A stretch of 64,000 nucleotides of DNA, taken from NCBI GenBank assembly GCA_029782215.1, contig JAKOVD010000142.1:1-64000 (forward strand), given 5' to 3'. The notes beneath the pieces were generated by a model. It was not told the DNA's origin. It was given only the letters and a program-made list of their open reading frames with translations, and did no database searches. Below, one piece after another: positions 6,466 through 40,966 of the stretch. The stretch is from Chloroflexota bacterium. Its GTDB lineage: Bacteria > Chloroflexota > Anaerolineae > J102. Each line of letters opens with the position of its first letter. Position 1 is the stretch's first letter. The position numbers and the translations under genes were made by a program.

Positions 6466-7614
6466 TCAATACCTGCGGTTCTCCTGGAACGCCTCCCACA
6501 TGGCCATGTAGTTGGCTGGGGGCACCGTGGCTTGCGTGTTGTGGATGGTCGTGAAGACCCAGCCGCCGCCGGGAGCCAGCGCTTCGATGTTCTCAAGGAC
6601 ATCCCGGCGCACTTCGTCGGGCGTCCCCTGGTCAAAGACCCGCTGGGTGTCGACGCCGCCGCCCCAGATGGTCAGGTCTTTGCCGTATTCCTTCTTGATG
6701 GCCTTGTAGTCAATGCCTGCCGCGCTCTTCTGCAGCGGGTTGAGGATGTCGATGCCCGACTCGATCAGGTCCCACAGAATGGGCATGAGGGCGCCGTCGC
6801 AGTGGTAGAAGAGCTTAGCATGGGTGCGGCTCTTGATGAAAGCGAAGAGCCGAGTATGCCTGGGCTTGATGAACTGGCGGTACTGCTCGCGGCTGAAGAA
6901 GAGTCGATCCTGGCCCGCCAGGTCATCGGCCTCGACGACGACATCTACCAGGTCGCCCACCTCCTCCAGCGCTCTCTCCCAGAAGGCCATCTTCAGGTCC
7001 ACCACCGTGTCCATGATGTATTCGGCCACTTCCGGGTAGAGGTAGAAGTCGGTGAAATAGTTCTCGAAGCCCCGCGTCCAGGCATGCATCTCCGAAACAC
7101 CGGCCGAAATGGAGCCGATCACGACCGCTTTGCCTTCGGCGATCGTCGCCAGAGCCTTGTCACGCAGACCGGCAAACCGCGCCGGGTCCGTAGGGTCAGG
7201 CCACTTATAGGACTTCTTGACGTCGTCGATGCTCCCGGCCCTGGCCAGGGGCCAGTGATACATGTCGTAGTAGAGACCGCCCTGCTTGGGGCTGCGCCAG
7301 CCGATGCCCCACTCGTCCGTATAGGCCGTGTAGTCGCCTTCGTCCCGGTATTCCAGGTTGTAGGCTGCCGAGGAGCGGGGGGCGATATTGTAGACATCGA
7401 CCAGCAGGCGGTTGGATAGGTCCTTGTCGATGACCGCCAGATTCTGGATCGCATCCGAGATGCGGGTTTCCACCTTGGGCAGTCCCAGGTAGTCACGCAG
7501 GTTCTGGTAAGCGATGTAGTGCATTCCCGACATCGGGCAGCCCGCCAGATCGAACGGGATCATGTCAGGTTCCTGGTGGTTCAGGGCCATTTGGACGCGT
7601 TCGCGCGAGTTCAC
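6466..7614 (-). CDS. URO-D-fold protein, corrinoid methyltransferase-like (HCDG type)
   Basis: This 382-residue protein belongs to the uroporphyrinogen decarboxylase/MtaA superfamily. The usual zinc-binding HxC of MtaA-type enzymes is replaced by YHCDGALMPIL near residue 271, followed by GIDILNPLQ and WGGGVDTQ. It is not expected to be HemE, because there is no porphyrin pathway nearby and the N terminus (NSRERVQMALNHQEPDMIPFD) is that of the methyltransferase-like branch. The start is the GTG at 7612-7614, supported by GGAGGAG eight bases upstream. It overlaps the previous stop (GTGA). It is a close paralogue of the next gene upstream. Confidence 0.87.
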   Translation of the reverse strand: MNSRERVQMALNHQEPDMIPFDLAGCPMSGMHYIAYQNLRDYLGLPKVETRISDAIQNLAVIDKDLSNRLLVDVYNIAPRSSAAYNLEYRDEGDYTAYTDEWGIGWRSPKQGGLYYDMYHWPLARAGSIDDVKKSYKWPDPTDPARFAGLRDKALATIAEGKAVVIGSISAGVSEMHAWTRGFENYFTDFYLYPEVAEYIMDTVVDLKMAFWERALEEVGDLVDVVVEADDLAGQDRLFFSREQYRQFIKPRHTRLFAFIKSRTHAKLFYHCDGALMPILWDLIESGIDILNPLQKSAAGIDYKAIKKEYGKDLTIWGGGVDTQRVFDQGTPDEVRRDVLENIEALAPGGGWVFTTIHNTQATVPPANYMAMWEAFQENRRY

Positions 7615-8783
7615 GGCAAGTCTCCTCCGGTAGCAAAGTAGTTGCGATTCTCCTGCAGGGCCTCCCACATGGCCATGAAGTTCTGGGGAGGAACGGTGGC
7701 CTGTGTGTTGTGGATGGTGGTGAAGATCCAACCGCCGCCAGGAGCCAAAGCTTCGATGTTTTCGAGGACGTCCCTGCGCACTTCCGCAGGCGTGCCCTGT
7801 TCGAAGACCCGCTGCGTGTCGACACCGCCGCCCCAGATCGACAGGTCGTTGCCATATTCCTTCTTGATCGCTTTGAAGTCAATGCCGGCGGCGCTCTTCT
7901 GCAGCGGGTTGAGGATATCGATGCCCGATTCGATCAGGTCCCACAGGACGGGCATGAGGGCGCCATCGCAATGGTACAAGATCTTGGCATTGGTGTGGCT
8001 CTTGATGAAAGAGAACAGCCGGGTGTGCCTCGGCTTGATGAACTGGCGGTACTGGTCGAGGCTGAACAACAGGTGGTTTTGACCGGCCAGGTCGTCGGGT
8101 TCGATGACCACATCCACCAGATCACCCAGCTCCTGCAGCGCACGCTCCCAGTAGGCGATCTTGAGATCCACCATCGTGTCCATGATGTACTCAGCGATCT
8201 CCGGGTGCAGATAGAAGTCGGTGAAGTAGTTCTCGTAGCCCCGCGTCCAGCCGTGCATCTCGGACACGCCCGGAGAGATCGAGCCCAGCACCACAGCCTT
8301 GCCTTCTGCAACTGCCGCCAAGGCACTGTCGCGCAGACCGGCGTAACGGGCCGGATCGGTGGGGTCAGGCCACCTGTCGTACTTCCTGACATCATCGACG
8401 GTCTCGGCCTTGATCAACGGCCAGGAATACATGTCATAGTAGAGGCCGCCGTGCTTGGGCTTGCGCCAGTCGATGCCCCAATCGTCGGTGTAGGCCGTGT
8501 AGTCGCCTTCGTCCCGATATTGTTGCTCGTGGGCGCCATAGGAGGGGGGAGCGATGTTGCGGACGTCGATCTGCAAACGATCGGCGACGTCCGCGTCGAT
8601 GGCGGCCAGTTGTTGGATAACGTCGGAAATGCGGGGCTGAACCTTTGGCATGCCCAGATAGTCGCGCAGGTTCACGTAGGCGACTTGATGGATGCCCGAC
8701 ATGGGCGTCGCCCCCAGATCGAAGGGGATCATGTCGGGTTCTTTGTGATTGAGGGCCATTTGGACGCGTTCGCGTGAATTCAT
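7611..8783 (-). CDS. URO-D-fold protein, corrinoid methyltransferase-like (HCDG type), paralogue
   Basis: This 390-residue paralogue of the downstream gene clearly arose by tandem duplication. Both begin NSRERVQMALNH and share long blocks such as YRDEGDYTAYTD, FYLHPEIAEYIMDT-like and NPLQKSAAGID. The metal-site segment is YHCDGALMPVL near residue 271. The start ATG (8781-8783) has AAGGAGA upstream and overlaps the stop of the CobW gene (ATGA). The family transfers methyl groups between substrate, corrinoid and thiol. The actual substrate is not determinable from sequence. Confidence 0.87.
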   Translation of the reverse strand: MNSRERVQMALNHKEPDMIPFDLGATPMSGIHQVAYVNLRDYLGMPKVQPRISDVIQQLAAIDADVADRLQIDVRNIAPPSYGAHEQQYRDEGDYTAYTDDWGIDWRKPKHGGLYYDMYSWPLIKAETVDDVRKYDRWPDPTDPARYAGLRDSALAAVAEGKAVVLGSISPGVSEMHGWTRGYENYFTDFYLHPEIAEYIMDTMVDLKIAYWERALQELGDLVDVVIEPDDLAGQNHLLFSLDQYRQFIKPRHTRLFSFIKSHTNAKILYHCDGALMPVLWDLIESGIDILNPLQKSAAGIDFKAIKKEYGNDLSIWGGGVDTQRVFEQGTPAEVRRDVLENIEALAPGGGWIFTTIHNTQATVPPQNFMAMWEALQENRNYFATGGDLP

Positions 8784-9751
8784 GGCCTATCTCCTTCCGC
8801 AGCAAAACAGTGGTTAAGCAAAGCAGGAAGTGACGCCTCGGCAAAGGCGCCGGGCGCGCCGATAAAGACAAGTGAACTCAGGGGTGCCTCCAGGCCCCAG
8901 CCGCCGGCAGGTTCCAGGGAGAAACGCGGTCCAACCAACTGCAGCAGATAGCGCTCGCCGGGCGCGTCGTCGAGGCAGACAAAGCCCTTGGCGCGATACA
9001 CGGACGGGGACAGAGCGGCCAGGGCCGCTTCCAGGGCCAGGCGCGACAGCGGGCGTGCTTCGGTCCAGGTCCACGTGGCAAAGTGATCGCCGTGGTCATG
9101 GTCATGATCTGCCCGATCCTCGGCGTGGAACACATCGAGGCGGTCGATGCCCAGCAAGACCGGAATGGGAACGTGGGCGTAGGACGTGGCGAAGATGCCT
9201 GCCTTGGGCGCCAGGGCCGCGACCCAGGCCTGCACCTCGGCCAGCGTCTGGCCGTCCACCAGGTCCACTTTGTTGAGCACGACCAGGTCGGAAGCCTCGA
9301 TCTGTTCCTCGATGGGCAGAATGACCTGGGCCAGCCGGCGCGCTCGCTCGACGTCGACCAGGGTGACGATGCCGGCCAGCCGCAAGCGGGAGCGGAAGAT
9401 GCCGGCGTCAAGCACAGACGCGACCTGGTGGGGCTTGGAAACGCCGCTGGCCTCGATCAGGATGTGTTCCGGCGGCTGTGGCAGGTTCAGGAGCCGCTGA
9501 AAGACGTCGATCAGGCTGCCGAACAGCGTGCAGCAAATGCAGCCGTTGGGCAGATCGATCATCTGCCCGGCGCGATCGGCATCCACCAGTTGGGCATCGA
9601 TGTTGACGGCGCCGAAGTCGTTGATGAGCACCGCCAGCCGCATGCCCAGGTCCGCCCGCAGAATGCGGTTGAGCAGCGTGGTCTTGCCCGCCCCGAGAAA
9701 CCCGGCGATCAGGGTCACGGGGATGGGGAAAGAGGGCGCGGAGGTGGTCAT
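8780..9751 (-). CDS. CobW/G3E-family GTPase, metallochaperone-like
   Basis: This 323-residue P-loop GTPase of the CobW/COG0523 group handles zinc or cobalt for client metalloproteins. Visible motifs are Walker A GFLGAGKTT (about residue 17), the metal-binding NGCICCTLFGSL (CxCC), LIEASGVSKP, the base-specificity motif VVLNKVDLVD, a His/Asp-rich metal segment DHDHDHGDH, and the C-terminal CobW domain. I chose the ATG at 9749-9751 because GAGGAAGG lies just upstream; a TTG 12 bases earlier also fits. Its place between three URO-D genes suggests it supplies metal (zinc, or cobalt chemistry) to them. Confidence 0.93.
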   Translation of the reverse strand: MTTSAPSFPIPVTLIAGFLGAGKTTLLNRILRADLGMRLAVLINDFGAVNIDAQLVDADRAGQMIDLPNGCICCTLFGSLIDVFQRLLNLPQPPEHILIEASGVSKPHQVASVLDAGIFRSRLRLAGIVTLVDVERARRLAQVILPIEEQIEASDLVVLNKVDLVDGQTLAEVQAWVAALAPKAGIFATSYAHVPIPVLLGIDRLDVFHAEDRADHDHDHGDHFATWTWTEARPLSRLALEAALAALSPSVYRAKGFVCLDDAPGERYLLQLVGPRFSLEPAGGWGLEAPLSSLVFIGAPGAFAEASLPALLNHCFAAEGDRP

Positions 9752-9763
9752 GCCCTTCCTCAA

Positions 9764-10936
9764 TCAGTTCAAGCGCCTGTGCAGGTAGTCGAACACCGCC
9801 TGACGCCCGGAACGAAGATCGCGGCGCACGCTGTCGTAGCGCCCGCCCTTGAGCAGCCCGACGACCGGCGAGTACTGGGAACAGATGACGATGCCGCGGC
9901 GGCGCAGCGTCGCCAGCATCTCGTCAAAGTAAGCTTCGTAGTCAACAGGGGTAAAATCGCACACGAAAAGAACCACGCGCCCGTCCAGCTTCTCCTGCAG
10001 CCTGGCCACAGAGGGGATGTTGTACAGGTTGTAGATGTTCAGGGCCTTGAGACCCTCCATCGCCAGGAAACTGTCGGCATGGTGCGTGGCGTTCCCGCAG
10101 TAATGGACGCAGCCGCCGCCGAATTCGGTGAGGATACGCGAGTTGTAGGGCACCACGAACTCCCGATAGGTTTCCGGTGACATCAAAACGGCGTCGTCAT
10201 CCGAGAACCAGATGCCGGCCTGCGGGCCTGTATAGACCTGCTGATCGGAAATACACCAGTTCTGCGGCTCGCCGATGACCTCCTTTTGCTTCTTCACCCA
10301 ACGGATCAGGGATTCGGTAACTACGTCCATCAGCCGGTGCATCATGTCCGGATGATCGAACATCAGGTAGATGAGCTTGTCATAGCCCATCAACTGGTTG
10401 GCCGTGGTCAGCGGGCCCTGAAAATCGGTGATGCCCACAGGCAGGAAGCTGTTGGCCTTCATGTAGCGAAGGAAGTCCAACACCTTGGGCATCAGGCCGT
10501 CCCTTTCCGGGTCAATGGGTTGGAGGCGCCTGACGTCCTCCGGAGTCTGCACAGGATAGTAGCGCGGATTGGCAGCGGGATCGGCCTTGGGGAAGTACTC
10601 GATCTGGCAGCCAAACGCAGAAGCGGTGACGATGGTGCCGAACCAGGGCATCAGATAGGGCACGAAGTCATCGTCAATGGACTTGACCTGGTCGTAATAC
10701 GTCTGCTCCTGAAAGTTGGTCATGATGGCCGGGTCATCGAAATAGGCCGCGGGCAGCGTATCCGTATCCAGGCCAAAGACCCAGTACAGGGCGCTGTTCA
10801 CCATGAAGGGCGGCGTCTTCATCTCGCGGAAGGCGAAGACCTCCGCGGTCTTGGCGTCGACCTTCGCCAGGCGCGCTTCAAACAGCTTCCGGAAGTCTGC
10901 GCGTTCGGCTGGGGTCAAAGGTTGCGAGATCTCCAT
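9764..10936 (-). CDS. URO-D-fold protein with canonical HxCG metal motif
   Basis: This roughly 390-residue URO-D/MtaA-superfamily member is divergent from its two operon partners. It carries VHYCGNATHH near residue 279, the HxCGN pattern used for zinc in MtaA/MtbA-type corrinoid:thiol methyltransferases. A further Cys occurs in VLFVCDFTP. Two adjacent ATG codons (10939 and 10936) follow TTGGAGGTCC; the second gives better spacing. It lies directly downstream of the double binding-protein gene. Of the three URO-D proteins in this operon it is the best candidate for a true zinc methyltransferase. Confidence 0.85.
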   Translation of the reverse strand: MEISQPLTPAERADFRKLFEARLAKVDAKTAEVFAFREMKTPPFMVNSALYWVFGLDTDTLPAAYFDDPAIMTNFQEQTYYDQVKSIDDDFVPYLMPWFGTIVTASAFGCQIEYFPKADPAANPRYYPVQTPEDVRRLQPIDPERDGLMPKVLDFLRYMKANSFLPVGITDFQGPLTTANQLMGYDKLIYLMFDHPDMMHRLMDVVTESLIRWVKKQKEVIGEPQNWCISDQQVYTGPQAGIWFSDDDAVLMSPETYREFVVPYNSRILTEFGGGCVHYCGNATHHADSFLAMEGLKALNIYNLYNIPSVARLQEKLDGRVVLFVCDFTPVDYEAYFDEMLATLRRRGIVICSQYSPVVGLLKGGRYDSVRRDLRSGRQAVFDYLHRRLN

Positions 10937-11128
10937 CATGGACCTCCAAATTTGGGGCTTGCCGCCAACCACCTGTCGTGGCGTTCAACCACTCACTGCG
11001 GCCTGGCGGTCAAGGTTCGACAAAAGCGGGGACACTTTGAGCCGGGCGTCCAGCTGCACGCAGCCGGTATCCCAAAGGCGAAGCCGCCCCGAAACGGCCA
11101 TCCCCTTGCCCTGGCCGCTGTCCGGGGC

Positions 11129-11158
11129 CAGGAGGTGGGGCGGGCGCCCCACCTCCTG
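11129..11158. terminator. 13-bp perfect hairpin after the binding-protein gene
   Basis: The arms CAGGAGGTGGGGC (11129-11141) and GCCCCACCTCCTG (11146-11158) enclose a 4-base loop, 17 bases past the stop of the solute-binding gene. Similar hairpins follow the other two binding-protein genes, suggesting partial termination or protection of the 3' end to raise binding-protein mRNA. Confidence 0.65.
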
Positions 11159-11174: not shown

Positions 11175-13241
11175 TTACTTGTGGTAGAAGAAGTCGGCGT
11201 TATCCTGGTTGATCACGATGACGCCCGTGTCCACCGATTCGGGCATGGGCACAATGCCCGCAGCCTTGTTGTCGGGAACGACCGGGACCGGCGCATGGTT
11301 CAGATAGTACATCAGCTTGGTGCCCAGGTAGGACATCAGAGCGGTCTTCTGCGCCACGGAGGCCGTGATCGTGCCGTCCTTGATGAAGTTCAAGGTGCCA
11401 TCGTCGCGATCCATGGAGATGATCTTGAGCTTGCCGTTCAGGCCCAGTTCCTTGGCTGCGGTAGCAGCGCCGACGCCGCCCGCGGCCTCGACACAGGCCA
11501 CGCCGGCCAGGTCAGGATAGCGCTGGAGCACGGCCTTGAGACCATCAGCAGCCTTCGCCGAATCGGACTGGTCGTCGATGATCTGGACGATCTCGACATC
11601 CTTGCAGTCCTTGGCCATGTAGTCCTTGTAGCCCTGGATACGCTCCTCCAGGTTGCTCTGGCCGACCTTGGTGATGAGGGCGACCTTGCCCTTGCCGCCG
11701 ATGGCGTCGCACAGCAGCTTGCCACCGGTCAGACCGGCATTGTGGTTGCCGGTGCCCAGGAAGGTGTTGCGCTTAGAGCCGTAGACCTCGGCGTCCAGGG
11801 TGACGATGGGGATGCCAGCCTCGCGCGCCTTGTCAATGGAAGGCTTGAGGACCGGGTCGAAGCCAACCACCAGGATGCCGGCGGGCTTCTCGGCGATGAC
11901 CTGGTCCAGGGTGTTGACCATGGCAGTCATGTCGTACTCGGCCGGACCCACGAACTTGGTCTGGACGCCCAGCTCCTTGCCGGCGAACTCCAGGCCCAGG
12001 CGATGGTCGATGAAGTAGGGCAGGTTGGTCAGGGCGAGCACCTCGACGTAGGTCTCGTCCGCCGCCGGCTTGGTCACTTCGATCTTGCTGAAGTCATAGG
12101 GATCGGTGGCATGGTAGAACAGCTTGGCGTTGTCCTTGTTGATGATCACCACGCCGGTGTCCACCGACTCCGGCATGGGGACGACGCCTGCGGCCTTGTT
12201 GTCGGCCACGATGGGTACAGGGTTGTTCTGCAGGCCTTCCATCAGCATGGTGCCGATGAAGGTCATCAGGGCGCTCTGCTGCGCCACCGAGGCATCGATC
12301 GTGCCATCCTCGATGAACTTCAGGGTGCCATCGTCACGGTCCATGGAGACGATCTTGAGCTTGCCCTGCATGCCCAGCTCCTGGGCTGCGGTGGCAGCGC
12401 CCACGCCGCCGGCCGCCTCGACACAACCGACGCCGGCCAGGTCAGGCTCGCGCTGGAGCACGGCCTTCAGGCCTTCGGCAGCCTTCGCCGAATCGGACTG
12501 GTCGTCGATGATCTGGACGATCTGGACGTCCTTGCAGCTCTCGGCCATGTAGTCCTTGTAGCCCTGGATGCGCTCTTCCAGGTTGCTCTGGCCGACCTTG
12601 GTGAGCAGGGCAACCTTGCCCTTCTTGCCGATGGCATCGCACAGAAGCTGGCCGCCGACCTTGCCGGCGTTGTAGTTGCCGGTGCCAAGGAAGGTCAGGC
12701 GCTTGGAGCCGTAAACCTCGGCGTCAAGGGTGACCACCGGGATGCCGGCATCCACGGCGGCGTCGATCGAGGGCTTGAGGGCCGGGTCGAAGCCGACGAT
12801 GTTGATGCCTTGCGGCTTGGTGGCGACAGCCTGGTCCATCGCGTTGACCATGGCAGTCATGTCATAGTCCACCGGGCCCACGTAGGGAGTGTCGGCGCCG
12901 AAGGCCTTGCCGGCGAAGTAGAGGCCCACCTGGTGGTCGATGAAGTAGGGCAGGTTGGTGAGGGCATTCACCTCGTAGTAGCTCTGCTTGGCCGCGGCCG
13001 GTTGCTCGGCGGCCTTGGTGGGCTCCGGCGCCTTGGTCGGTTCGGGAGCCTTGGTCGGTTCAGCAGCTGGCGCCTGGGTGGGCGCCGCCTCTGGCGCCTT
13101 GGTCGGTTCAGCAGCGGGGGCCTTGGTTGGTTCCGCGGCCGGAGCTTGGGTGGGTGCGGCGCCGCCGCAAGCCGCCAACAGGGCGATTGCGAACAGCATC
13201 ACCACGGCAAGTGCAAGGAACTTGGACGAACGGGATTTCAC
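11175..13241 (-). CDS. Tandem-fused double sugar-binding lipoprotein of ABC importer
   Basis: This 688-residue lipoprotein has lipobox LLAAC (Cys25), a linker of repeated PTQAPAAEPTKAP-like units (about 27-70), and then two complete periplasmic sugar-binding (Peripla_BP_4) modules, roughly 75-375 and 380-688. The modules are closely similar: both contain LTNLPYFIDH, YDMTAMVN, TLDAEVYGSKR, VGQSNLEERIQGYKDYMA, QIIDDQSDSAKAA and SMDRDDGTL. Normal family members have one module of about 300 residues. The start is the GTG at 13239-13241, following AAGGAGGAG. It lies downstream of its permease and ATPase. The two modules may widen specificity or raise local ligand capture. Confidence 0.95.
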   Translation of the reverse strand: MKSRSSKFLALAVVMLFAIALLAACGGAAPTQAPAAEPTKAPAAEPTKAPEAAPTQAPAAEPTKAPEPTKAPEPTKAAEQPAAAKQSYYEVNALTNLPYFIDHQVGLYFAGKAFGADTPYVGPVDYDMTAMVNAMDQAVATKPQGINIVGFDPALKPSIDAAVDAGIPVVTLDAEVYGSKRLTFLGTGNYNAGKVGGQLLCDAIGKKGKVALLTKVGQSNLEERIQGYKDYMAESCKDVQIVQIIDDQSDSAKAAEGLKAVLQREPDLAGVGCVEAAGGVGAATAAQELGMQGKLKIVSMDRDDGTLKFIEDGTIDASVAQQSALMTFIGTMLMEGLQNNPVPIVADNKAAGVVPMPESVDTGVVIINKDNAKLFYHATDPYDFSKIEVTKPAADETYVEVLALTNLPYFIDHRLGLEFAGKELGVQTKFVGPAEYDMTAMVNTLDQVIAEKPAGILVVGFDPVLKPSIDKAREAGIPIVTLDAEVYGSKRNTFLGTGNHNAGLTGGKLLCDAIGGKGKVALITKVGQSNLEERIQGYKDYMAKDCKDVEIVQIIDDQSDSAKAADGLKAVLQRYPDLAGVACVEAAGGVGAATAAKELGLNGKLKIISMDRDDGTLNFIKDGTITASVAQKTALMSYLGTKLMYYLNHAPVPVVPDNKAAGIVPMPESVDTGVIVINQDNADFFYHK

Positions 13242-13348
13242 GGGACTCCTCCTTCAGAAAGTCGCGGGTGAAATGGTGGTTGGGTGACGATGACTCATGG
13301 TAGAAGGGTCATGGGAGTTGCAGCGATGGACACCTCCTCAAACGTCGA

Positions 13349-14344
13349 TTACGAGCGATTACGCCGGCTCAACGAGTCGGCGGCGACGGCGATGATGAGC
13401 ACAGCGCCTACGACGATCGTCTGCCAGTAGACGTTGATGCCAAGCAAATTGAGGCCGTTGTTGATCAGCGCCATCAGCGCCACGCCGAAGAAGGCGCCGA
13501 GGATGGTTCCCTCGCCGCCCGCCAGGCTGGCGCCGCCGATGACCACGGCGGAGATCACCCGCAGCTCGGCGCCGTTGCCTGCCGACACCGAGGCCGAACC
13601 GAACCGGGCGGTCAGCAGCAAGCCGGAGACGGCAGCCATCGTGCCGGCAATCATGTAGTTGACAATCTGGATGCGACTCACGCGGATGCCAGACAGGCGG
13701 GCGCTGCGCTCGTTGCCGCCCACAAAGTAACTTTGGCGAAAATAGCGAGACCGGCGCAGCAGGATGTCACCCAGGATCACACAGACGACCATGACGTAGA
13801 CAGGATACTGCAGACCAAAGAGCTTGCCTTGAGCGATCTGGTTAAACCTCTGCGGCAGGTTCGGGATGCCAAGACCCGAGGTCAGCAGAAACACCGCCCC
13901 ACGGGCGATCTGCATCATGCCCAGTGTGGCGATCAGCGGATTGACCTTGACCTTCGACACCAGCAGGCCGTTGATAAGACCCACAAAGGCGCCCGTCAGC
14001 AGGCCCAGGATGATGGCGATTGGCCAGGGCAGGTGCATAAAAGCCATGGCATAACCGGCTACGGCGCCCGCCAGGGCCAGAACCGCTCCAACCGAGAGGT
14101 CGAAGCCACCGGAGACCATGAGGATGGTCATGCCTACGGCCACGATCATGTCGAAGGAAAGGCCGAGAATGACTGCCGTCAGATTGGCGGGATTGAGGAA
14201 GTTCTTTGAGGTGAGCGCAAGCAGCGCCGCCAGGAGCAGCACCACAAAGAAGACGCTCAGCTCCCGCTGCTCCAACACCCGGCGTGCGAACGAGCGCCCG
14301 GAGCTCTGGCTGCTGGTGGTGCTGGTGTCTGATATCGAAGCCAT
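13349..14344 (-). CDS. Sugar ABC transporter permease (RbsC/XylH type)
   Basis: This inner-membrane permease of 331 residues has about 8-10 hydrophobic segments. Family hallmarks are VGMTILMVSGGFDLSVGAVLALAG, GLINGLLVSKVKVNPLIATLGM, RSYFVGGNERSARLSGI-like YFVGGNERSARLSGIRV, and VIGGASLAGGEGTILGAFFG. The true start is the ATG at 14342-14344 with AAGGAGG upstream; the open frame extends further but lies inside the ATPase gene. It pairs with the ATPase (1 base between stop and start) and the double binding protein to form an importer for a ribose/xylose/galactose-like sugar. Confidence 0.95.
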   Translation of the reverse strand: MASISDTSTTSSQSSGRSFARRVLEQRELSVFFVVLLLAALLALTSKNFLNPANLTAVILGLSFDMIVAVGMTILMVSGGFDLSVGAVLALAGAVAGYAMAFMHLPWPIAIILGLLTGAFVGLINGLLVSKVKVNPLIATLGMMQIARGAVFLLTSGLGIPNLPQRFNQIAQGKLFGLQYPVYVMVVCVILGDILLRRSRYFRQSYFVGGNERSARLSGIRVSRIQIVNYMIAGTMAAVSGLLLTARFGSASVSAGNGAELRVISAVVIGGASLAGGEGTILGAFFGVALMALINNGLNLLGINVYWQTIVVGAVLIIAVAADSLSRRNRS

Positions 14345-14345
14345 G

Positions 14346-15860
14346 CTATGCCTCCTTCTGGGCAACGCCAGCCGCGAACTGCATGATCCGTTCCTGGCTG
14401 GCTTCACGATGAGACAGGGTCCCCACGATCTGACCCTTACGCATGATGATGATGCGATCGCTGATGGCGAGGGTTTCTGGTAGGTCTGAAGAGATGACGA
14501 CAATGGCCTTGCCCTGGCTGGCCAGGTGGCGCAAGATGCGGTGAATCTCCTGCTTGGTGCCGACGTCAATGCCACGGGTGGGCTCGTCGACGATGAGCAC
14601 GTCCGGCTCGGTAGCCAGCCACATGCCCAGGAGCACCTTCTGCTGGTTGCCACCCGAGAGGTTGCGCAGGCGTTGGTCCAGGCTGGGGGTCTTCACGTCC
14701 AGGGCATGGACGTAGTGACGGGTCAGCTTCTGCACCGCATCCCACTGCAGCCAGCCGGACGGCGCCACGCGGCGGAGGTTGGTGACGAGAAAGTTCTCCT
14801 TGACCGTCTTGTCCAGATAGAGCCCCTCGCGCTTCCGGTCCTCGGACAGGTAGGCCAGGCCGAGGTGCATGGCGTCCGCCGGATGCGAGGGCCGTGTCGG
14901 CGCGCCCCCTTTGACCGAGACCGTACCGGCGGTGGCGACATCCATGCCCACGATGCAGCGTGCCAGCTCGGTGCGGCCGGCGCCAACCAGGCCGAAGAAC
15001 GTCACCACCTCGCCTGCATAAGCCGAAAAGGTCACGTTCTCAAAGACCCCTTTCCGGCTGAAGCCTTCGACGCGCAGCCGTTCCGAGTCTTTTTTGACAT
15101 CGGCACCGGCCACCAGGTTGGCATCGTCCAGCTCGCGGCCCACCATCATGCCCACAATTTGGTGCTCGTTGGTGTCGGCCGTGTTGACCACCCCCACCAG
15201 CTCGCCGTCCCGCAGCACGGCCACGCGATCAGTGATCGCCATCACCTCTTCGAGATGGTGCGACACGTAGACGATCGTGATGCCCTGCTGCTTAAGCTGG
15301 CGCAGGCGCGCAAAGAGAAGATTGGCTTCCGACAGGGAAAGCGAAGAAGTAGGCTCATCCAGGACCAACACCTTGGCCTGGCGAGACATCGCCTTCATGA
15401 TCTCGACCAACTGCTGGTTGCCCAACGACAGCATGCTCACACGATCATTGGGCCTGAATCCGACTTCGAATTGGTCAAACATGGCCTGCGCCGCCCGCTG
15501 CATCGCTCCTACATCCATCAGCCCGACTGCGCCCCTGGGTTGGCGGCCGGCAAAGATGTTTTCGGCGATGCTCAGGTTGTTGACCAGGCTCAGCTCCTGG
15601 TACACGACGCTGATGCCCGCGGCTTCTGCCTCATGCGGGTGGTTGAAGCGCACTTCCTTGCCGTCCAGCATGATCGCCCCTTCATCAGGTTGGACGGCGC
15701 CCGCCAACACTTGGATCAGCGTCGACTTGCCCGCGCCGTTTTCGCCTACAAGCGCCAGGATCTCGGCCGGTCGAACACCCAACGTCACAGTCTTCAGGGC
15801 CTGTACACCAGGATAGGCCTTGGAGATATTGGTGACCTTCAGAATGAACTGATCATCCAT
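14346..15860 (-). CDS. Sugar ABC transporter ATPase, two nucleotide-binding domains (RbsA/MglA type)
   Basis: This 504-residue cytoplasmic ATPase holds two nucleotide-binding domains in one chain. The first has Walker A GENGAGKSTL, signature-like LSLGNQQLVEI and Walker B VLVLDEPTSSL. The second has the family's degenerate Walker A region (FFGLVGAGRTELA), signature LSGGNQQKVLL and Walker B VLIVDEPTRGIDVG. The start ATG (15858-15860) follows AAGGAGG by 11 bases. It is the first gene of the long minus operon, preceded by the palindromic operator and promoter at 15916-15975. Confidence 0.96.
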   Translation of the reverse strand: MDDQFILKVTNISKAYPGVQALKTVTLGVRPAEILALVGENGAGKSTLIQVLAGAVQPDEGAIMLDGKEVRFNHPHEAEAAGISVVYQELSLVNNLSIAENIFAGRQPRGAVGLMDVGAMQRAAQAMFDQFEVGFRPNDRVSMLSLGNQQLVEIMKAMSRQAKVLVLDEPTSSLSLSEANLLFARLRQLKQQGITIVYVSHHLEEVMAITDRVAVLRDGELVGVVNTADTNEHQIVGMMVGRELDDANLVAGADVKKDSERLRVEGFSRKGVFENVTFSAYAGEVVTFFGLVGAGRTELARCIVGMDVATAGTVSVKGGAPTRPSHPADAMHLGLAYLSEDRKREGLYLDKTVKENFLVTNLRRVAPSGWLQWDAVQKLTRHYVHALDVKTPSLDQRLRNLSGGNQQKVLLGMWLATEPDVLIVDEPTRGIDVGTKQEIHRILRHLASQGKAIVVISSDLPETLAISDRIIIMRKGQIVGTLSHREASQERIMQFAAGVAQKEA

Positions 15861-15988: not shown

Positions 15989-17050
15989 CTACGCATTGGG
16001 CATCACCAGGATCTTGAGCACATCGGCCCGGCCTTGCCCCAGCCTTTCCAGGCCGCGGGGGATGAGATCATCCAGGGTGATGCGGTCGGAGATCAGGGCA
16101 TCGACCTCGATGCGGCCATCGGCCAGCATGCGCACCGCCGCCCAGAAGTCCTCGTCATAGACATGGCTCAGCGAACCGATGATCTCCTTTTCCGTGGTGA
16201 CGACGGAGAGGAAATTGAAACTCGACGGCCCTGTGGGCAGCCCGACCAGGACGACCCGGCCCGACTTGCGCGTGGCTTCAATCGCCTGCGGGACCACAGT
16301 GGGAACACCGGTGGCTTCGATGACGACATCAGCGCCGATACAGGTGATGGCCATGAGCTGCTCTACGGCGCCCCCTTCCCGGGGATCGATGGCGCCTGCG
16401 GCGCCCAATTGCAGGGCCAGCTTGCGCCGGAAGGGGTCGGGTTCGACCAGGTAGACGGCGGCGGCGCCAGCGTGCCGAGCCACCTGCAACGCCAGCAGCC
16501 CGATGGTGCCGCCGCCGAAAATAGCCACCACGTCCCCCAACTGGACCCGGCCTTTGCGCACGGCGCGTACGGCCACGGCAAGCGGTTCGGCCAGGGCGGC
16601 ATGATCAGAGCGCAGCGCATCAGGGACCTTGATGCACATGGCCACGGGAGCCTTGCAGTACTGCGCAAGCCCCCCATGCCCACTCAAGCCCAGCGCCGCC
16701 ATCTGGTCGCACATTGTCACCTGGTGCCGCTTGCACCAATAGCATTCGCCGCAGTACAAGAGCACATCGGGCGCCAGACGGTCACCTACCTTGTACTTGG
16801 TCACCCTGCTGCCCACTTCCACCACCTCGCCGATGAATTCGTGGCCGAGGACCAGGGGCGCCATCACCCCGGTCAGGGGATTGGGCGCGTCCACGGGTAT
16901 GAGGATGGGACCGTGGCGGTATTCCTCCAGGTCGGTGCCGCAAATGCCGCAGTAGTCGACCTTGAGAATGACGTCTTCGGGACCGGGCTTAGGATTGGGA
17001 AACTCCTCGACCCGGATGTCGTTGCGGGCATAATAAAGAGCTGCCTTCAC
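15989..17050 (-). CDS. Zinc-dependent medium-chain alcohol/polyol dehydrogenase
   Basis: This 353-residue MDR-family enzyme resembles butanediol, threonine and sorbitol dehydrogenases. The catalytic zinc region is CGICGTDLEEYRHGP with GHEFIGEVVEVG. The structural zinc Cys set is CGECYWCKRHQVTMC. The NAD site is IFGGGTIGLLALQVARHAGA. It would oxidise a polyol or sugar alcohol. It starts at the GTG 17048-17050, overlapping the stop of the GntR gene (GTGA), so the pair is co-transcribed and the regulator probably senses the dehydrogenase's substrate. Confidence 0.93.
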   Translation of the reverse strand: MKAALYYARNDIRVEEFPNPKPGPEDVILKVDYCGICGTDLEEYRHGPILIPVDAPNPLTGVMAPLVLGHEFIGEVVEVGSRVTKYKVGDRLAPDVLLYCGECYWCKRHQVTMCDQMAALGLSGHGGLAQYCKAPVAMCIKVPDALRSDHAALAEPLAVAVRAVRKGRVQLGDVVAIFGGGTIGLLALQVARHAGAAAVYLVEPDPFRRKLALQLGAAGAIDPREGGAVEQLMAITCIGADVVIEATGVPTVVPQAIEATRKSGRVVLVGLPTGPSSFNFLSVVTTEKEIIGSLSHVYDEDFWAAVRMLADGRIEVDALISDRITLDDLIPRGLERLGQGRADVLKILVMPNA

Positions 17051-17862
17051 GCGGCCTCCTTCTGCAGGACTTGTCCCAGCATGGGTGTTTGTGTCTGGCT
17101 GGCATCGAGCGCCGTCAGTCGCTGCAGTTTCTCCCGATCCTCGCTCAGCATATCGCTCCAGATGAGCATGATATGCTCCTGCATGGCCTGGGCAGCGCGC
17201 TCGGGGTCATGAGCGATCAGGGCCTCGACGACGGGCTGGTGCTTCTCGGCGACCTCTTCGAGGCTGCGGAACATGTAAGGATGGGTCGTCACGAGCAAGC
17301 GATGAAGCTGGGCGTAAAGCGGCGTCCAGATACGCACCAGGGTGTGGTTGTCCGACCACTCCAGGATGAGGCGGTGGAAAGTCATGTCGGCGGCGACCAC
17401 ACCCTTGATGTCATTGTCCAGGCCCGCCACCGCCATCTCCGCCACGAGCCGCTGGAGTTGGGCGACCTGCTCCGCGGTGATGCATTGGGCCACACGCCGG
17501 ATCGCCAACCCCTCCACCATGGTACGCACCAGGAAAACATCATGCATCTCATCCCAGGCTATCGGCGTGACAAAGGTGGCCGAGCGGCTCTTGCGCTCGA
17601 CCAGGCCATCCTGCTCCAGGCGCTGCAGCGCCTCCCGCACCGGCGCCTGGCTTGTCCCCGCCTGCCGGGCAATCTCCAATTCGACCAGGCGGGTCCCGGC
17701 GCGCAGCTCACCCTCGATGATCGCCTGCCGGAGCGAGGTCTCGATCTGATCAGCGAGCGACGGCCTGCGTTCATAGCGCAGGCGGGATACGGGATAAGCC
17801 GCCTCGTTCTGCAATCCGAGATCGATAGGTTCGGGCATCTGTCTCGCCGGGCGCCTGCACAT
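17047..17862 (-). CDS. GntR-family regulator, FCD (FadR) subgroup
   Basis: This 271-residue transcription factor has a winged helix at about residues 35-105 (LADQIETSLRQAIIEGELRAGTRL, SQAPVREALQRLEQDGLVE), followed by an all-helical FCD ligand domain whose metal ligands appear as D-x(3)-H in ADMTFHRLIL and two later His residues (EKHQPVVEAL, QEHIMLIW). FCD regulators usually sense carboxylates or sugar acids. I chose the ATG at 17860-17862, with GGAG five bases upstream. Directly upstream lie a strong promoter and a palindrome, likely the autoregulatory site. Confidence 0.93.
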   Translation of the reverse strand: MCRRPARQMPEPIDLGLQNEAAYPVSRLRYERRPSLADQIETSLRQAIIEGELRAGTRLVELEIARQAGTSQAPVREALQRLEQDGLVERKSRSATFVTPIAWDEMHDVFLVRTMVEGLAIRRVAQCITAEQVAQLQRLVAEMAVAGLDNDIKGVVAADMTFHRLILEWSDNHTLVRIWTPLYAQLHRLLVTTHPYMFRSLEEVAEKHQPVVEALIAHDPERAAQAMQEHIMLIWSDMLSEDREKLQRLTALDASQTQTPMLGQVLQKEAA

Positions 17863-25228: not shown

Positions 25229-26389
25229 CTAGCGGATCTGCTTGTCCACCAGGGCGGACAGCATATCGACGTTGTCCTTGTGGGCGAAGCCAGCGCCGGT
25301 GTCGATGTGCAGGCCCGTGAAGAGGAACTGCTTGGTCAGACAGAGCTGCAGAATAGGCAGGTAGCCCTGCAGCCACTGCTGCTGGTCGATCACCAGGTCG
25401 GTGTAGCCCTTCTTAATCGAGGCGACGGTGGCCGACGAGAGGTCGAAGCCGGCGGTGTAGACCTTCTCCGGATCCAGGTTGGCGGCTGTGAGCAGCGCCT
25501 CCTGGCTCGAGGTCAGGTTGCCGTGGTCGGTGATGATGATCTTGACGTCAGGGTTGGCCGAGGCATAGCCGACGAAGGTCGGGATGCCAGCGGCAGGATC
25601 CTTATTGGTGGCGTCGTCGATCTCGAGGTAGTCGACCTTCAATCCAGCCTTCTCCAGGCCTTCTTTCACACCACGGGTGCGCTCGCCGCGGCCGGGCTGC
25701 GCCAGCAGACCCCAGACCATGGCCTTGTCGCCGGCCTTGGCGCCGGAGCGGGCCACAGCTTCCTGGGCCAGGGCAAAGCCGGCCGAATACAGCTCGGCGC
25801 CCACGTAGCCGAAGCCGTTGCTCTTGTAGGCGGCCTCGAGCTCGGGCAGGGTGGTGTTCTGGCTGGTGATGATAATGCCGGCCTTCTCGGCCTCATCCAC
25901 CAGGGGCTTGTAGGCATTGTCACCGGGATGCCCCATGATGGCGATGCCATCGGGCTTGCGGGCAATGGACTCGCCAAGCTGGGTGACCATCTTCTCGGTA
26001 TTCCAGTCGGACCAAACGTAATTCACGTCGGCGCCGAGGTCTGCGGCAGCGGCGAGAGCGCCATTGTAGACGACGGTCTCGAAGGGGCCGCCAGGCGAGC
26101 CACCGGGGTAGAACTCGATCTTGACTCCACTGCACCATTTGCCTTCGGCGGCGGGAGCTGCGCCCTCGGTTGCGGCCGGGGCAACGGTGGGAGCTTCCGT
26201 GGCAGCAGGCGCCGCGGTGGGAGCTTCCGTAGCAGCAGGCGCCTGCGTCGGCGCCTCAGTGGCCTTGACCACCTCAGTGGCGGGCGCCTGGGTAGCGGCC
26301 GGGGCTTGGGTGGGCTGACCGCCGCACGCGGCCAACAGGGCCACCACGGCCATCAGGGCCACGATCAGGAAGAGCATGCTCTTCTTCAT
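25229..26389 (-). CDS. Sugar-binding lipoprotein of second ABC importer
   Basis: This 386-residue lipoprotein has signal MKKSMLFLIVALMAVVALLAAC (Cys22), a linker rich in ATEAPTAAP repeats to about residue 80, and one Peripla_BP_4 sugar-binding module beginning at WCSGVKIEFYPGGSPGGPFE. The segments YNGALAAAADLGADVNYVWSDWN, GIAIMGHPGD and VIDQQQWLQGYLPI are typical of this class. The start is the ATG at 26387-26389, after AAGGAG. It lies downstream of a URO-D gene and upstream of its own ATPase and permease. Confidence 0.95.
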   Translation of the reverse strand: MKKSMLFLIVALMAVVALLAACGGQPTQAPAATQAPATEVVKATEAPTQAPAATEAPTAAPAATEAPTVAPAATEGAAPAAEGKWCSGVKIEFYPGGSPGGPFETVVYNGALAAAADLGADVNYVWSDWNTEKMVTQLGESIARKPDGIAIMGHPGDNAYKPLVDEAEKAGIIITSQNTTLPELEAAYKSNGFGYVGAELYSAGFALAQEAVARSGAKAGDKAMVWGLLAQPGRGERTRGVKEGLEKAGLKVDYLEIDDATNKDPAAGIPTFVGYASANPDVKIIITDHGNLTSSQEALLTAANLDPEKVYTAGFDLSSATVASIKKGYTDLVIDQQQWLQGYLPILQLCLTKQFLFTGLHIDTGAGFAHKDNVDMLSALVDKQIR

Positions 26390-26568
26390 GTCCTTGTCTC
26401 CTTTGACGTTTGAGAAGTGTTCCAACAGTGAGTGTCAGTAGTGGGTGCAGCATTGACGCAATGATTGGCTGCACAAAGACGCTGCCGGGAAACCTAGACC
26501 ATCTACACCTCCTGAATGGGTCTTCTAGCTGTTCATTTGAGGCAACGAGAGCGAAGCCGGGCCGCCTC

Positions 26569-32474: not shown

Positions 32475-33530
32475 TCAGGCCGGGTTGGAGAGCGGTCCGC
32501 CAGAGCTCGCCCGCACCACCAGCTCCGGCTGGAGCCAGGTGACCTGCGCGCGCGGCGCTTCGGCAGCCTCGACGACCTCAACCAGGTCGGCGATTTGGCT
32601 GACGGCCCTGCAGCCCAGCTCGCTCTGATTGTGATAGACGGTGCTCAAGGGGGGCCAGAAGTAGGCCGCCTCGGGCAGACCGTCGAAGCCAACCACGGCC
32701 AGGTCTTCGGGCACGCGGATGCCGTGGCGGTGGGCGTGGTTGAGCACCCCCAACGCCATCTGGTCGTTGGCGACAAAGACCGCGGTCATCTCAGGAAACT
32801 GCTGGTGCAGGCGCGCAAAGGCCTGCTCCCCCTGGGCTGAGGACCAGTTGCCCTGGGCACAGTGCCCATCGGCGGCAGGCAAACCGGCGGCGTGCATCGC
32901 TTCTTCCCATCCGCGCCGCCGTTCGCGCGCCTCCCACCAGGTCGCGGGACCCATGATGTGGCCGATACACCGGTGCCCGTGGGCCAGGAGATGCTCGGTG
33001 GCCAGGCGCCCGCCCAGGTAGTTGTCGAAGGTGATGATGTGCCAACCCGGCACCTCGTGCATGGTCAGGAAGACGATGGGCACGGGGAAATCGTCCAGCA
33101 GCGTTGTGAAGGCCTCACGGTTGTCCCCGGCCTCCTGCACGGCCCAGATGATGCCATCCACCTGCCGGGCCAACAGGTTGTCGAGGATGTGCTCGACGTC
33201 ACGATAGGCGAAATCGGCAAGCTCCTCGAGCAGGAGGGTGTAGCCCAGCTCTTCGGCCTTGGCGGTAATGCCGTTGAGCGTCCGCGCAGGCCCCATGTAC
33301 TGCAGCCCGGCGGTCACCACACCCAGGGTGTGGCTGCGCTGCCGGATCAGGCTGCGCGCCAGGGCGCTGGGCTTGTAGCTCAGGCGCTCGATCACATCTA
33401 GCACCCGCTGTCGCGTTTCCGGAGCGACGTCGGGGCGCTCGTTTATGACCCTCGACACCGTCTGGGTGGAGACGAGGGCTTCCCTGGCTACGTGTTTGAT
33501 GGTGACGCGACGTCTGCCTGCAGCCGCCAT
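32475..33530 (-). CDS. LacI-family transcriptional repressor
   Basis: This 351-residue regulator has its helix-turn-helix at about residues 9-30 (VTIKHVAREALVSTQTVSRVINERP), hinge YKPSALARSLIRQRSHTLGVV and a periplasmic-binding-like sugar sensor domain (WWEARERRRGWEEAMHAAG, AVFVANDQMALGVLNHAHRHGI, VVGFDGLPEAAYFWPPLSTV). It heads the arabinose operon. Its own promoter carries a site resembling the palindrome in front of the operon ending at 15860, so it probably controls both. Confidence 0.95.
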   Translation of the reverse strand: MAAAGRRRVTIKHVAREALVSTQTVSRVINERPDVAPETRQRVLDVIERLSYKPSALARSLIRQRSHTLGVVTAGLQYMGPARTLNGITAKAEELGYTLLLEELADFAYRDVEHILDNLLARQVDGIIWAVQEAGDNREAFTTLLDDFPVPIVFLTMHEVPGWHIITFDNYLGGRLATEHLLAHGHRCIGHIMGPATWWEARERRRGWEEAMHAAGLPAADGHCAQGNWSSAQGEQAFARLHQQFPEMTAVFVANDQMALGVLNHAHRHGIRVPEDLAVVGFDGLPEAAYFWPPLSTVYHNQSELGCRAVSQIADLVEVVEAAEAPRAQVTWLQPELVVRASSGGPLSNPA

Positions 33531-36891: not shown

Positions 36892-38169
36892 CTAGCTCAG
36901 CGGATAGGTGCGGAACTCGTTGATGGCTTCGTAGAGGGCAACCAGGTTCTCCACCGGAATGCCGGGCTGGACGTTGTGAATGGTGTTGATGACGTAGCCG
37001 CCGCTGCGGCCAAAGATGCGAATGCTGCGCTGGACTTCCTTGCGGATCTCCTCGGGCGTGCCAAACGGCAGCGTTCCCTGGGTGTCCACGATCGCGCCCC
37101 AGAAGTTCAGGCGGTCGCCGAAGCGGTCCTTCAGCATCTGCGGCTCCATGCCCTCGGCCGTCCACTGCACCGGATTCATGATGTCAAAGCCCGCATCGAT
37201 GAATTCCGGTATCAGCGGAATGAGGCTGCCGTCCGTGTGAATAAAGCACTTCCACGTCGTGTTCGCATGGATCCAATCGTTGATGGCCTTGTGGAAGGGC
37301 CGGTAGAGGTCGCGATAGGCCTTGGCCGAAATGAAGGGCGCCCGCTGCGTGCCAAAGTCAGTGCCGGTCAGGTAGCAGCAGGTCAGCTTGTTGCCCACCA
37401 CCCGGTGCAGTTTCTGCAGGTTCGACAGGGCAACCTCGCACTGCATCTCGAACAGGCGGTAGATGTAGTCCCGCCGGGCCGCCAGGCTGACATACCACTC
37501 CTCGACGTCACGGATGCCCTTCGGGTATTTGAGCCAGGGCGCCGGCACCAGGGCGATGTCGCCAAAGGCCGTGCCGCCAAAGTTCACCAGCAGGGCCTTG
37601 TCGGTCCCGTTCCACAGACGGTCGACTTCACGGCCGAAATAGGCAAGGTCCGCATCAGAGATGTGTCCAAACTCCTCCATGTTGTCCATGGGGTCGAGGT
37701 GATCCTCGTCGATGGGCGGCTGGCGCACGATGGTGTCGAAATAAAAGCCGCCCTTGGGCATCCGCCCGCTCGGCGGCGCCGACTGATCACCTTCGGGATA
37801 CATCAGGATGCCGCCATCCGGTTCAGGCGTGGTATTGAAGGCCTCCGGCACCTCCACCGGCGTGCCGTCAGGCAGCTCCCATGCCTTCCAGCCCTCATTC
37901 CTGAACCCAAACAGGCCTTTCGCCGGCCACAGGCCGATGACATCCACCCCCAGGGCCTCCTGGAGGTCGGGCTTGATCTCACCCAACAATTGGTAGGGTT
38001 CGATGATCTTGACCGGCGTGCCAGGCGGATCCAGTTTCAGCGCCTGGCGGAGCAGATAGACCGAGCTGGCGTGCATGCCCGTGGTGGGGGCGGCGCCCAA
38101 ATCCAGGGGAACGCGATCAGCTTCCTGGTGGTTGAGCGCCAAGTGGACGCGCTCGCGTGACGTTAACAT
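36892..38169 (-). CDS. URO-D-fold protein, IHTDG type (tandem copy 1)
   Basis: This 425-residue tandem paralogue of the downstream gene carries CFIHTDGSLIPLIPEFIDAG near residue 311. Differences between the copies are scattered substitutions with no gaps. It lies 38 bases downstream of the third importer's ATPase, so both copies are probably expressed with that transporter. The 156-base gap between the two copies shows no promoter or hairpin that I could recognise. Confidence 0.86.
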   Translation of the reverse strand: MLTSRERVHLALNHQEADRVPLDLGAAPTTGMHASSVYLLRQALKLDPPGTPVKIIEPYQLLGEIKPDLQEALGVDVIGLWPAKGLFGFRNEGWKAWELPDGTPVEVPEAFNTTPEPDGGILMYPEGDQSAPPSGRMPKGGFYFDTIVRQPPIDEDHLDPMDNMEEFGHISDADLAYFGREVDRLWNGTDKALLVNFGGTAFGDIALVPAPWLKYPKGIRDVEEWYVSLAARRDYIYRLFEMQCEVALSNLQKLHRVVGNKLTCCYLTGTDFGTQRAPFISAKAYRDLYRPFHKAINDWIHANTTWKCFIHTDGSLIPLIPEFIDAGFDIMNPVQWTAEGMEPQMLKDRFGDRLNFWGAIVDTQGTLPFGTPEEIRKEVQRSIRIFGRSGGYVINTIHNVQPGIPVENLVALYEAINEFRTYPLS

Positions 38170-39952: not shown

Positions 39953-40966
39953 TTAGCGGTAGTTGGGGTCGTACTTCGCGTAGTTCTGCGGCGTCACTAC
40001 GTCTGTGCCCGTGTCGATGTTGCTGGGGCGCACGCCGAAGGCCTTTTCCTGGTGCAGCATCATCACCGGCATGTAACCCTGCCAGTAAGGATTCTGGCCG
40101 AGGGCGAAGGAAGTGTAGCCTTCCTTGAGGCCTTCCTGGTTGCCAGGACCAATGTCGGAGCCGCCGGTCTTCAGCTTGCCCTGCAGGTTGTTCTTCTTGA
40201 TGAACTGCGAGATCACGTGGCTGTAGTAGTCGGAGCCGTAGATGCCCTTGATGTCGGGATTGGCCTGGTAGAACGCCTCGATAGCCTGGTAGACGGCATT
40301 CTCATCGGTGCCAGTGTTGATGATCTGGCGGACCTTCCACTTGCCGTTGCCTTCTTTCTGCAGGGTCTCCTCCATGGAGCGATTGCGCTCTTCCAGGGCG
40401 TAATGGCCGGGGCAGCAGTCGGTGATAGCGATATCGCCGCCATCGGGCAGGTCCTTCATGATTTCATGTGCCCACACCTTGCCGTAGTTGGTGAAGTCCT
40501 GGCCCACAAAGGGGACGGGCAGGGCTGCATCAGCCTTGGGGTCGTTGGTGTTGAAAGCAGCGACCAGGATGCCGGCATCGAGGGCCTTCTTGGTCACATC
40601 GTTGTAGGCGCTGGGGTCGGGGCGGGTGATCATGATGGCATCGGGCTTCTTGGCGATAGCAGCCTCGATGATCGAAACCTGCTCCTTGGGATCGTAGGCC
40701 TGCGGCCCGAGGAACTCGCACTCGGCGTTGATCTGCTTGCAGGCATCTTCCATACCGCGACGCACCGGGGCAAAGACGCCGGCGCCCAGGTCATGGGTGA
40801 CGAAGGTGATCTTCATCTTGTGATCCATGCCGTAGGTGTTGGCGCCGCCGGCAGCCGGCGCCTCTGGGGCCTTTTGCTGGATGGCGGGTGCGGCCGACTG
40901 GCAGGCGCCCAGAACGATGGCCAAGGCCATCAGGCCACCGAGCACGAACAGAGTGGACTTCTTCAT
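39953..40966 (-). CDS. Sugar-binding lipoprotein of third ABC importer
   Basis: This 337-residue lipoprotein has signal MKKSTLFVLGGLMALAIVLGAC (Cys22), a short linker, and one Peripla_BP_4 module (KITFVTHDLGAGVFAPVRRGMEDAC, AIAKKPDAIMITRPDPSAY, GQNPYWQGYMPVMML). The sequence most resembles ribose/rhamnose/xylose-type binding proteins. The start follows AAGGAGC. It lies 112 bases downstream of its permease. The nearby ribokinase, mutarotase and DeoC-like aldolase suggest a pentose or deoxy-sugar ligand. Confidence 0.95.
   Translation of the reverse strand: MKKSTLFVLGGLMALAIVLGACQSAAPAIQQKAPEAPAAGGANTYGMDHKMKITFVTHDLGAGVFAPVRRGMEDACKQINAECEFLGPQAYDPKEQVSIIEAAIAKKPDAIMITRPDPSAYNDVTKKALDAGILVAAFNTNDPKADAALPVPFVGQDFTNYGKVWAHEIMKDLPDGGDIAITDCCPGHYALEERNRSMEETLQKEGNGKWKVRQIINTGTDENAVYQAIEAFYQANPDIKGIYGSDYYSHVISQFIKKNNLQGKLKTGGSDIGPGNQEGLKEGYTSFALGQNPYWQGYMPVMMLHQEKAFGVRPSNIDTGTDVVTPQNYAKYDPNYR

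Follow-up and report, generated by a model that had tools for sequence, protein, structure and literature searches.

The window, by which we mean the whole 64,000-nucleotide stretch of an Anaerolineae (Chloroflexota) genome analysed here, contains on its minus strand an open reading frame (11175-13241; GTG start at 13241, stop codon at 11175-11177) whose 688-aa product is a two-module CUT2 solute-binding lipoprotein. Pfam PF13407 (Peripla_BP_4) matches this protein in two stretches (E 9.6e-96, 320.7 bits against a cut-off of 35.1), and a hydrophobic N-terminus with a LAAC lipobox, read directly in the sequence, provides the export and anchoring signals of a CUT2 solute-binding protein (SBP). 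A sequence-only reading of this DNA had described two closely similar Peripla_BP_4 modules behind one lipobox and linker, which Pfam and the sequence bear out with exact coordinates. The features of the locus, all on the minus strand, are given below in the direction of transcription.

17047-17862 (-): GntR/FCD regulator, at the head of the operon (Pfam)
15989-17050 (-): Zn-dependent dehydrogenase; the top NCBIfam match, scyllo-inosose 3-dehydrogenase IolM, is below cut-off
14346-15860 (-): CUT2 ATPase with two nucleotide-binding domains, AraG/RbsA-like (profile matches)
13349-14350 (-): CUT2 permease, BPD_transp_2, AraH/RbsC-like (profile matches)
13248-13253 (-): Shine-Dalgarno sequence AGGAGG, read in the sequence, 6 bases upstream of the GTG
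11175-13241 (-): two-module CUT2 solute-binding lipoprotein, 688 aa (ORF and Pfam)
13167-13241 (-): signal peptide and lipobox, residues 1-25 (LAAC is residues 22-25, with Cys25); hydrophobic N-terminus read in the sequence, helix at 5-20 in the model
12990-13166 (-): disordered linker rich in Ala/Pro/Thr/Glu (PTKAP-type), residues 26-84; pLDDT <50 at 17-83
12108-12989 (-): module 1, residues 85-378, complete PBP type I fold (Pfam, module alignment, AlphaFold model)
12279-12677 (-): C-lobe of module 1 (module codons 105-237), homogenized with module 2 (site-pattern counts)
12060-12107 (-): inter-module linker, residues 379-394 (16 aa), with PYDFS at 381-385 (motif in 7/7 double proteins)
11178-12059 (-): module 2, residues 395-688, complete PBP type I fold (Pfam, module alignment, AlphaFold model)
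11349-11747 (-): C-lobe of module 2 (module codons 105-237), homogenized with module 1 (site-pattern counts)
11122-11158 (-): strong 13-bp hairpin directly after the SBP stop codon, z -4.5, position approximate (hairpin computation)
9764-10942 (-): URO-D superfamily protein, conserved beside the double SBP (profile matches, neighbourhoods of relatives)
8780-9763 (-): CobW-type GTPase of the metal chaperone family (profile matches, neighbourhoods of relatives)
7611-8783 (-): URO-D superfamily protein (profile match, neighbourhoods of relatives)
6466-7650 (-): URO-D superfamily protein (profile match, neighbourhoods of relatives)

A two-NBD ATPase and a BPD_transp_2 permease thus stand beside the double SBP, as is usual for CUT2 binding proteins, and every one of the relatives described below has the same gene order of ATPase, permease and double SBP; a URO-D gene adjoins in nearly all of them and the CobW GTPase in some. 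Also adjoining in the window are genes for an SDR, an FAH-type hydrolase, a PfkB kinase and an enolase-superfamily enzyme. For each of the window's two remaining CUT2 importers, the binding protein has a single module (25229-26425 and 39953-40966), just as had been proposed from the sequence, and a fourth Peripla_BP_4 match (32475-33530) is a LacI regulator. Hairpins such as that at 11122-11158 often occur where an SBP is produced in larger amounts than its transporter; this one is a possible candidate for 3' protection of the mRNA or for an attenuator.

Module likeness and the binding clefts

Modules 1 and 2 share 225 of 294 residues (76.5%) and 79.8% of their DNA, so that chance likeness is of no concern, and they have diverged with a dN of 0.17 and a dS of 0.48. 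An AlphaFold model of the 688-aa protein (mean pLDDT 81.8, from a shallow alignment of 9 sequences) contains two full PBP folds. Their best structural matches are AraP (6sw4) and 3g1w, with target TM 0.90-0.96. The modules have the fold and family of known CUT2 SBPs (Peripla_BP_4: AraP 6sw4, 3g1w, the T. maritima glucose/xylose-binding protein and RbsB), at ~33-36% identity to the nearest structures. Those proteins, on the other hand, have one module per chain, whereas here two are carried on one anchor and joined by a conserved linker, whose PYDFS motif is invariant in all seven double proteins known to us (the window protein and six relatives) and is missing from the C-terminus of module 2.

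In order to compare the clefts, the E. coli RbsB sequence, checked to be identical to 1urp/2dri, was aligned to all modules. At each of the 15 positions that we take to be the ribose contacts of RbsB, module 1 and module 2 have the same residue, and this holds in 7/7 double proteins. At D89, N105, R141, D215 and Q235, every module of the seven proteins has the RbsB residue itself; these positions include the polar contacts of the sugar cleft (D, R, D and Q at D89, R141, D215 and Q235). With identical contact residues, two sites for one and the same small sugar or cyclitol are a better fit than two ligands or a single disaccharide, and we infer the same ligand for both modules from these residues; they do leave room for the modules to differ in affinity. 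The suggestion that the fusion might bind two different ligands thus finds no support, since the contact positions agree 15 out of 15 in seven species. The same applies to a disaccharide spanning both modules, which we reject: in the model, each module is complete, with both lobes and a cleft of its own, and the closest relatives of solved structure have a single module and are annotated as monosaccharide binders (of arabinose, glucose and xylose, for example).

The modules are nevertheless not wholly interchangeable. While 145 of 293 columns are invariant across the 14 modules of the seven double proteins, at nine positions module 1 and module 2 each have a fixed residue of their own in at least 6 of the 7, mostly in N-lobe segments, and five of these nine sit in the helix after a conserved Gln.

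Relatives, duplication history and gene conversion

Relatives were sought by a scan of a genome collection and by a search through 396 class genomes. Six more Chloroflexota genomes, of which three turned up in both searches, encode the same double protein, and the fusion is thus present elsewhere in the phylum, where the sequence-only reading had proposed to look for it. Three of the six relatives belong to the same GTDB family as the window genome (one of them to its genus), two to other families of the class, and one is unplaced. Module 1s are generally nearest to other module 1s and module 2s to other module 2s, most clearly inside the family, and the tree that includes all modules and outgroups requires a single change of position label (support 81/93, in 94% of bootstrap trees). 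Because the modules group by position, one old duplication accounts for all seven double genes; a single duplication before the split of the lineages would be the simplest reading of these sequences, with moderate tree support.

Not all parts of the modules have since evolved alike. For pairs of genomes, we counted sites with an ortholog pattern, in which the same module agrees across genomes, and sites with a paralog pattern, in which the two modules of one gene agree with each other and differ from the other genome; the C-lobe was taken as module codons 105-237, by alignment to RbsB. Between the window gene and its congener L033, ortholog and paralog sites number 50 and 4 in the N-lobe, and 5 and 33 in the C-lobe, a contrast of p ~2e-15 if sites are treated as independent, with 3 and 3 sites in the noise class. 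The same contrast is found in five of six genome pairs within the family at p <0.02, the sixth giving p 0.09, and the pattern switches near codons 100 and 240, which are the lobe boundaries. These counts show repeated homogenization of the C-lobes of the two modules by gene conversion, with N-lobes that stay position-specific; C-lobe conversion holds the two copies alike.

One related gene (L013:5267-6433, on a contig shared with L038) is a single-module version. Its first part has module-1-type residues at several diagnostic sites (21, 51, 54, 63), mixed with module-2-type residues, and its last part is of module-2 type wherever it matches either module. This pattern probably reflects a double gene collapsed by recombination, and the collapse of a repeat during assembly could give the same picture. 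A single-module gene in a related genome implies that two modules would be non-essential.

Multi-module CUT2 binding proteins across the class

Three additional multi-module CUT2 binding proteins are encoded in the window genome, each on a contig of its own: L017:4622-7618 (C9) with three modules that are 90-95% identical within the protein, L018:4210-7509 (C204) with three that are 88-98% identical, and L019:3483-5441 (C71), in which at least two are present before the contig end interrupts the gene. No multi-module frame was found among the 15 SBP_bac_8 and 3 Peripla_BP_6 matches of this genome. Among the best ~150 matches listed for Anaerolineae (121 class genomes), 20 of ~128 proteins (~15%) have 2-3 modules per frame, against 1 of 128 among the best ~150 listed for the rest of the phylum, and rates that rest on the best matches in this way are not unbiased. 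Class genomes with few contigs have a multi-module frame in 6 of 18 cases, including genomes of 3 and 5 contigs, and one case beyond the class lies in a 1-contig genome (L067). The plasmid-borne rhizobial relatives among the matches listed comprise only single-module pieces and no double. The true count of multi-module genes may be higher, because short-read assembly, by inference, tends to collapse such repeats.

Likeness between modules of one protein was compared in 25 proteins, among which the window family is intermediate. In an old double family (five of the 25: L048-L051 and L053), the modules are 32-36% alike, each being ~85-95% identical to its counterpart in other species, and these sequences suggest that the two modules may bind different ligands. 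One triple protein has modules ~67-73% alike; in the remaining proteins, they are 88-100% alike. Doubled and tripled versions across one Chloroflexota class suggest that cells raise capture capacity by intragenic duplication of the binding unit.

Two further proteins were noted in passing. In the congener, the double SBP gene is immediately followed by one (L033:10750-12867) for a further two-module binding protein with essentially identical modules and its own adjoining ABC genes. Another two-module protein with near-identical modules (L039:1949-4114) has an N-terminus that is LysM-like in appearance in place of a lipobox.

Working mode, alternatives and ligand

We favour, with a probability of about 0.6, the reading that this CUT2 importer lipoprotein arose by intragenic tandem duplication and has two equivalent modules for the same ligand, which raise the local density of loaded domains. 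The whole binding module of a ribose/arabinose-type CUT2 SBP would have been duplicated in tandem inside its gene, so that two complete, independently closing sugar-binding modules would sit on a single lipid anchor with a long, flexible stalk, and both would bind the same small polyol or monosaccharide-like solute. With one module docked on the permease, the other could stand ready with its ligand a few nanometres away, and the fusion would thus give a higher local density of loaded domains and more delivery sites per anchor, all without fusion to the transporter. Both modules would bind and deliver, and the benefit, by analogy, would be one of local capture or delivery rate. Of the three options raised from the sequence, namely better local capture, two ligands and a disaccharide, raised local capture fits best.

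The analogy is with tandem binding domains of known importers. In GlnPQ and OpuA, extra tethered domains either place more sites close to the translocator or work cooperatively; such domains reach a millimolar local concentration and compete for docking or cooperate (PMC8025302, PMC11065425). GlnPQ, like the protein described here, has two complete tandem domains with a short linker (14 aa in GlnPQ, 16 aa here) serving one ABC importer (PMC8025302). Its domains, however, are of the amino-acid class (SBP_bac_3) and are fused to the transmembrane subunit, whereas here they are of the sugar class (Peripla_BP_4) and form a separate lipoprotein, the permease having its own gene (13349-14350). Each OpuA transporter carries two tethered domains that share one specificity and are reported to cooperate (PMC11065425); there, each membrane subunit carries one domain and dimerization brings two together, while here both are in one chain that is not fused to a membrane subunit. 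We read the double SBP as a free lipoprotein analogue of these tandem domains that would raise local capture, and the analogy covers working mode, not membership.

Other explanations have to be weighed against this reading. First, the modules could be specialized as in GlnPQ, with differing affinity, ligand range or docking, thus covering two concentration ranges or two related ligands. GlnPQ modules do differ in ligand and affinity (PMC8025302), and both the nine module-specific positions and the resistance of the N-lobe to conversion would agree with such a division. All contact-equivalent positions are, on the other hand, identical between the modules here, at the level of sequence, and most other multi-module proteins, being 88-100% alike, could hardly specialize; we thus consider specialization unlikely. 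Second, repeated DNA may simply recombine, with copy number drifting neutrally or transiently between one, two and three and no benefit for transport. Near-identical recent copies are common, conversion tracts exist and the single gene, module-1-like in front and module-2-like behind, is what a collapsed double would leave. The window family, however, has retained both modules, the open frame and the linker motif in several families of the class, with dN/dS between modules well below 1; furthermore, the class bias is strong and no multi-module frame was found among the 15 SBP_bac_8 and 3 Peripla_BP_6 matches of the genome, all of which makes pure drift rather improbable. Third, one module could serve transport and the other sensing or partner binding, similarly to SBPs that present ligand to a receptor; the N-lobe differences are fixed by position and XylFII with LytS, a receptor-linked protein, is among the structural relatives, yet neither a sensor kinase nor a chemoreceptor gene was found among the neighbours examined, and we regard this as very unlikely. 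Finally, a duplication error of assembly or sequencing, which the sequence-only reading had named as the danger to its claim and which a 214-contig assembly might invite, can be discarded, since the modules differ by 20% in DNA, six independent genomes carry the same architecture with module-specific orthology, and other two-module proteins occur in genomes of 1, 3 and 5 contigs.

Beyond this locus, we offer only tentatively a wider proposal for Anaerolineae, in which recurrent and reversible intragenic multiplication (1, 2, 3 or more copies) might tune anchored sugar capture, with conversion holding one lobe identical across copies and the other becoming position-specific for docking or packing. 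Our search of the open-access literature, with subscription papers outside its scope, found no description of free multi-module CUT2 lipoproteins; their recurrence appears new to us, tandem binding domains as such being already known from GlnPQ and OpuA. Tandem domains have been studied mainly in those two systems, where fusion to a membrane subunit mixes the effect of tethering with that of domain number. Free lipoproteins that carry one to three near-identical modules provide a natural series for the effect of module number alone on uptake, and they bear on how Chloroflexota live on dilute sugars. They also carry a warning that short-read assemblies may collapse multi-module genes and that annotation may miss their copy number.

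As for the ligand, no family model matched above its cut-off, the top matches (rhizopine SBP, RhaS and allose SBP) all being far below. The best NCBIfam match, rhizopine SBP NF052284 (E 3.6e-55), reaches 187.2 bits against a curated cut-off of 420, and the protein is thus not a member of that family. The neighbouring genes are consistent with a pathway that imports and degrades a small polyol, sugar or sugar acid. Because corrinoid O-demethylases belong to the URO-D superfamily (PMC10418091), we also weighed whether the URO-D genes might O-demethylate a methylated sugar, which we do not claim. URO-D superfamily genes repeatedly adjoin CUT2 importers, both in the window (6466-10972 and 36892-38169) and elsewhere (L018:2734-4038 and L010:8432-9565), and may possibly mark an unrecognized pathway link, through demethylation or another reaction.
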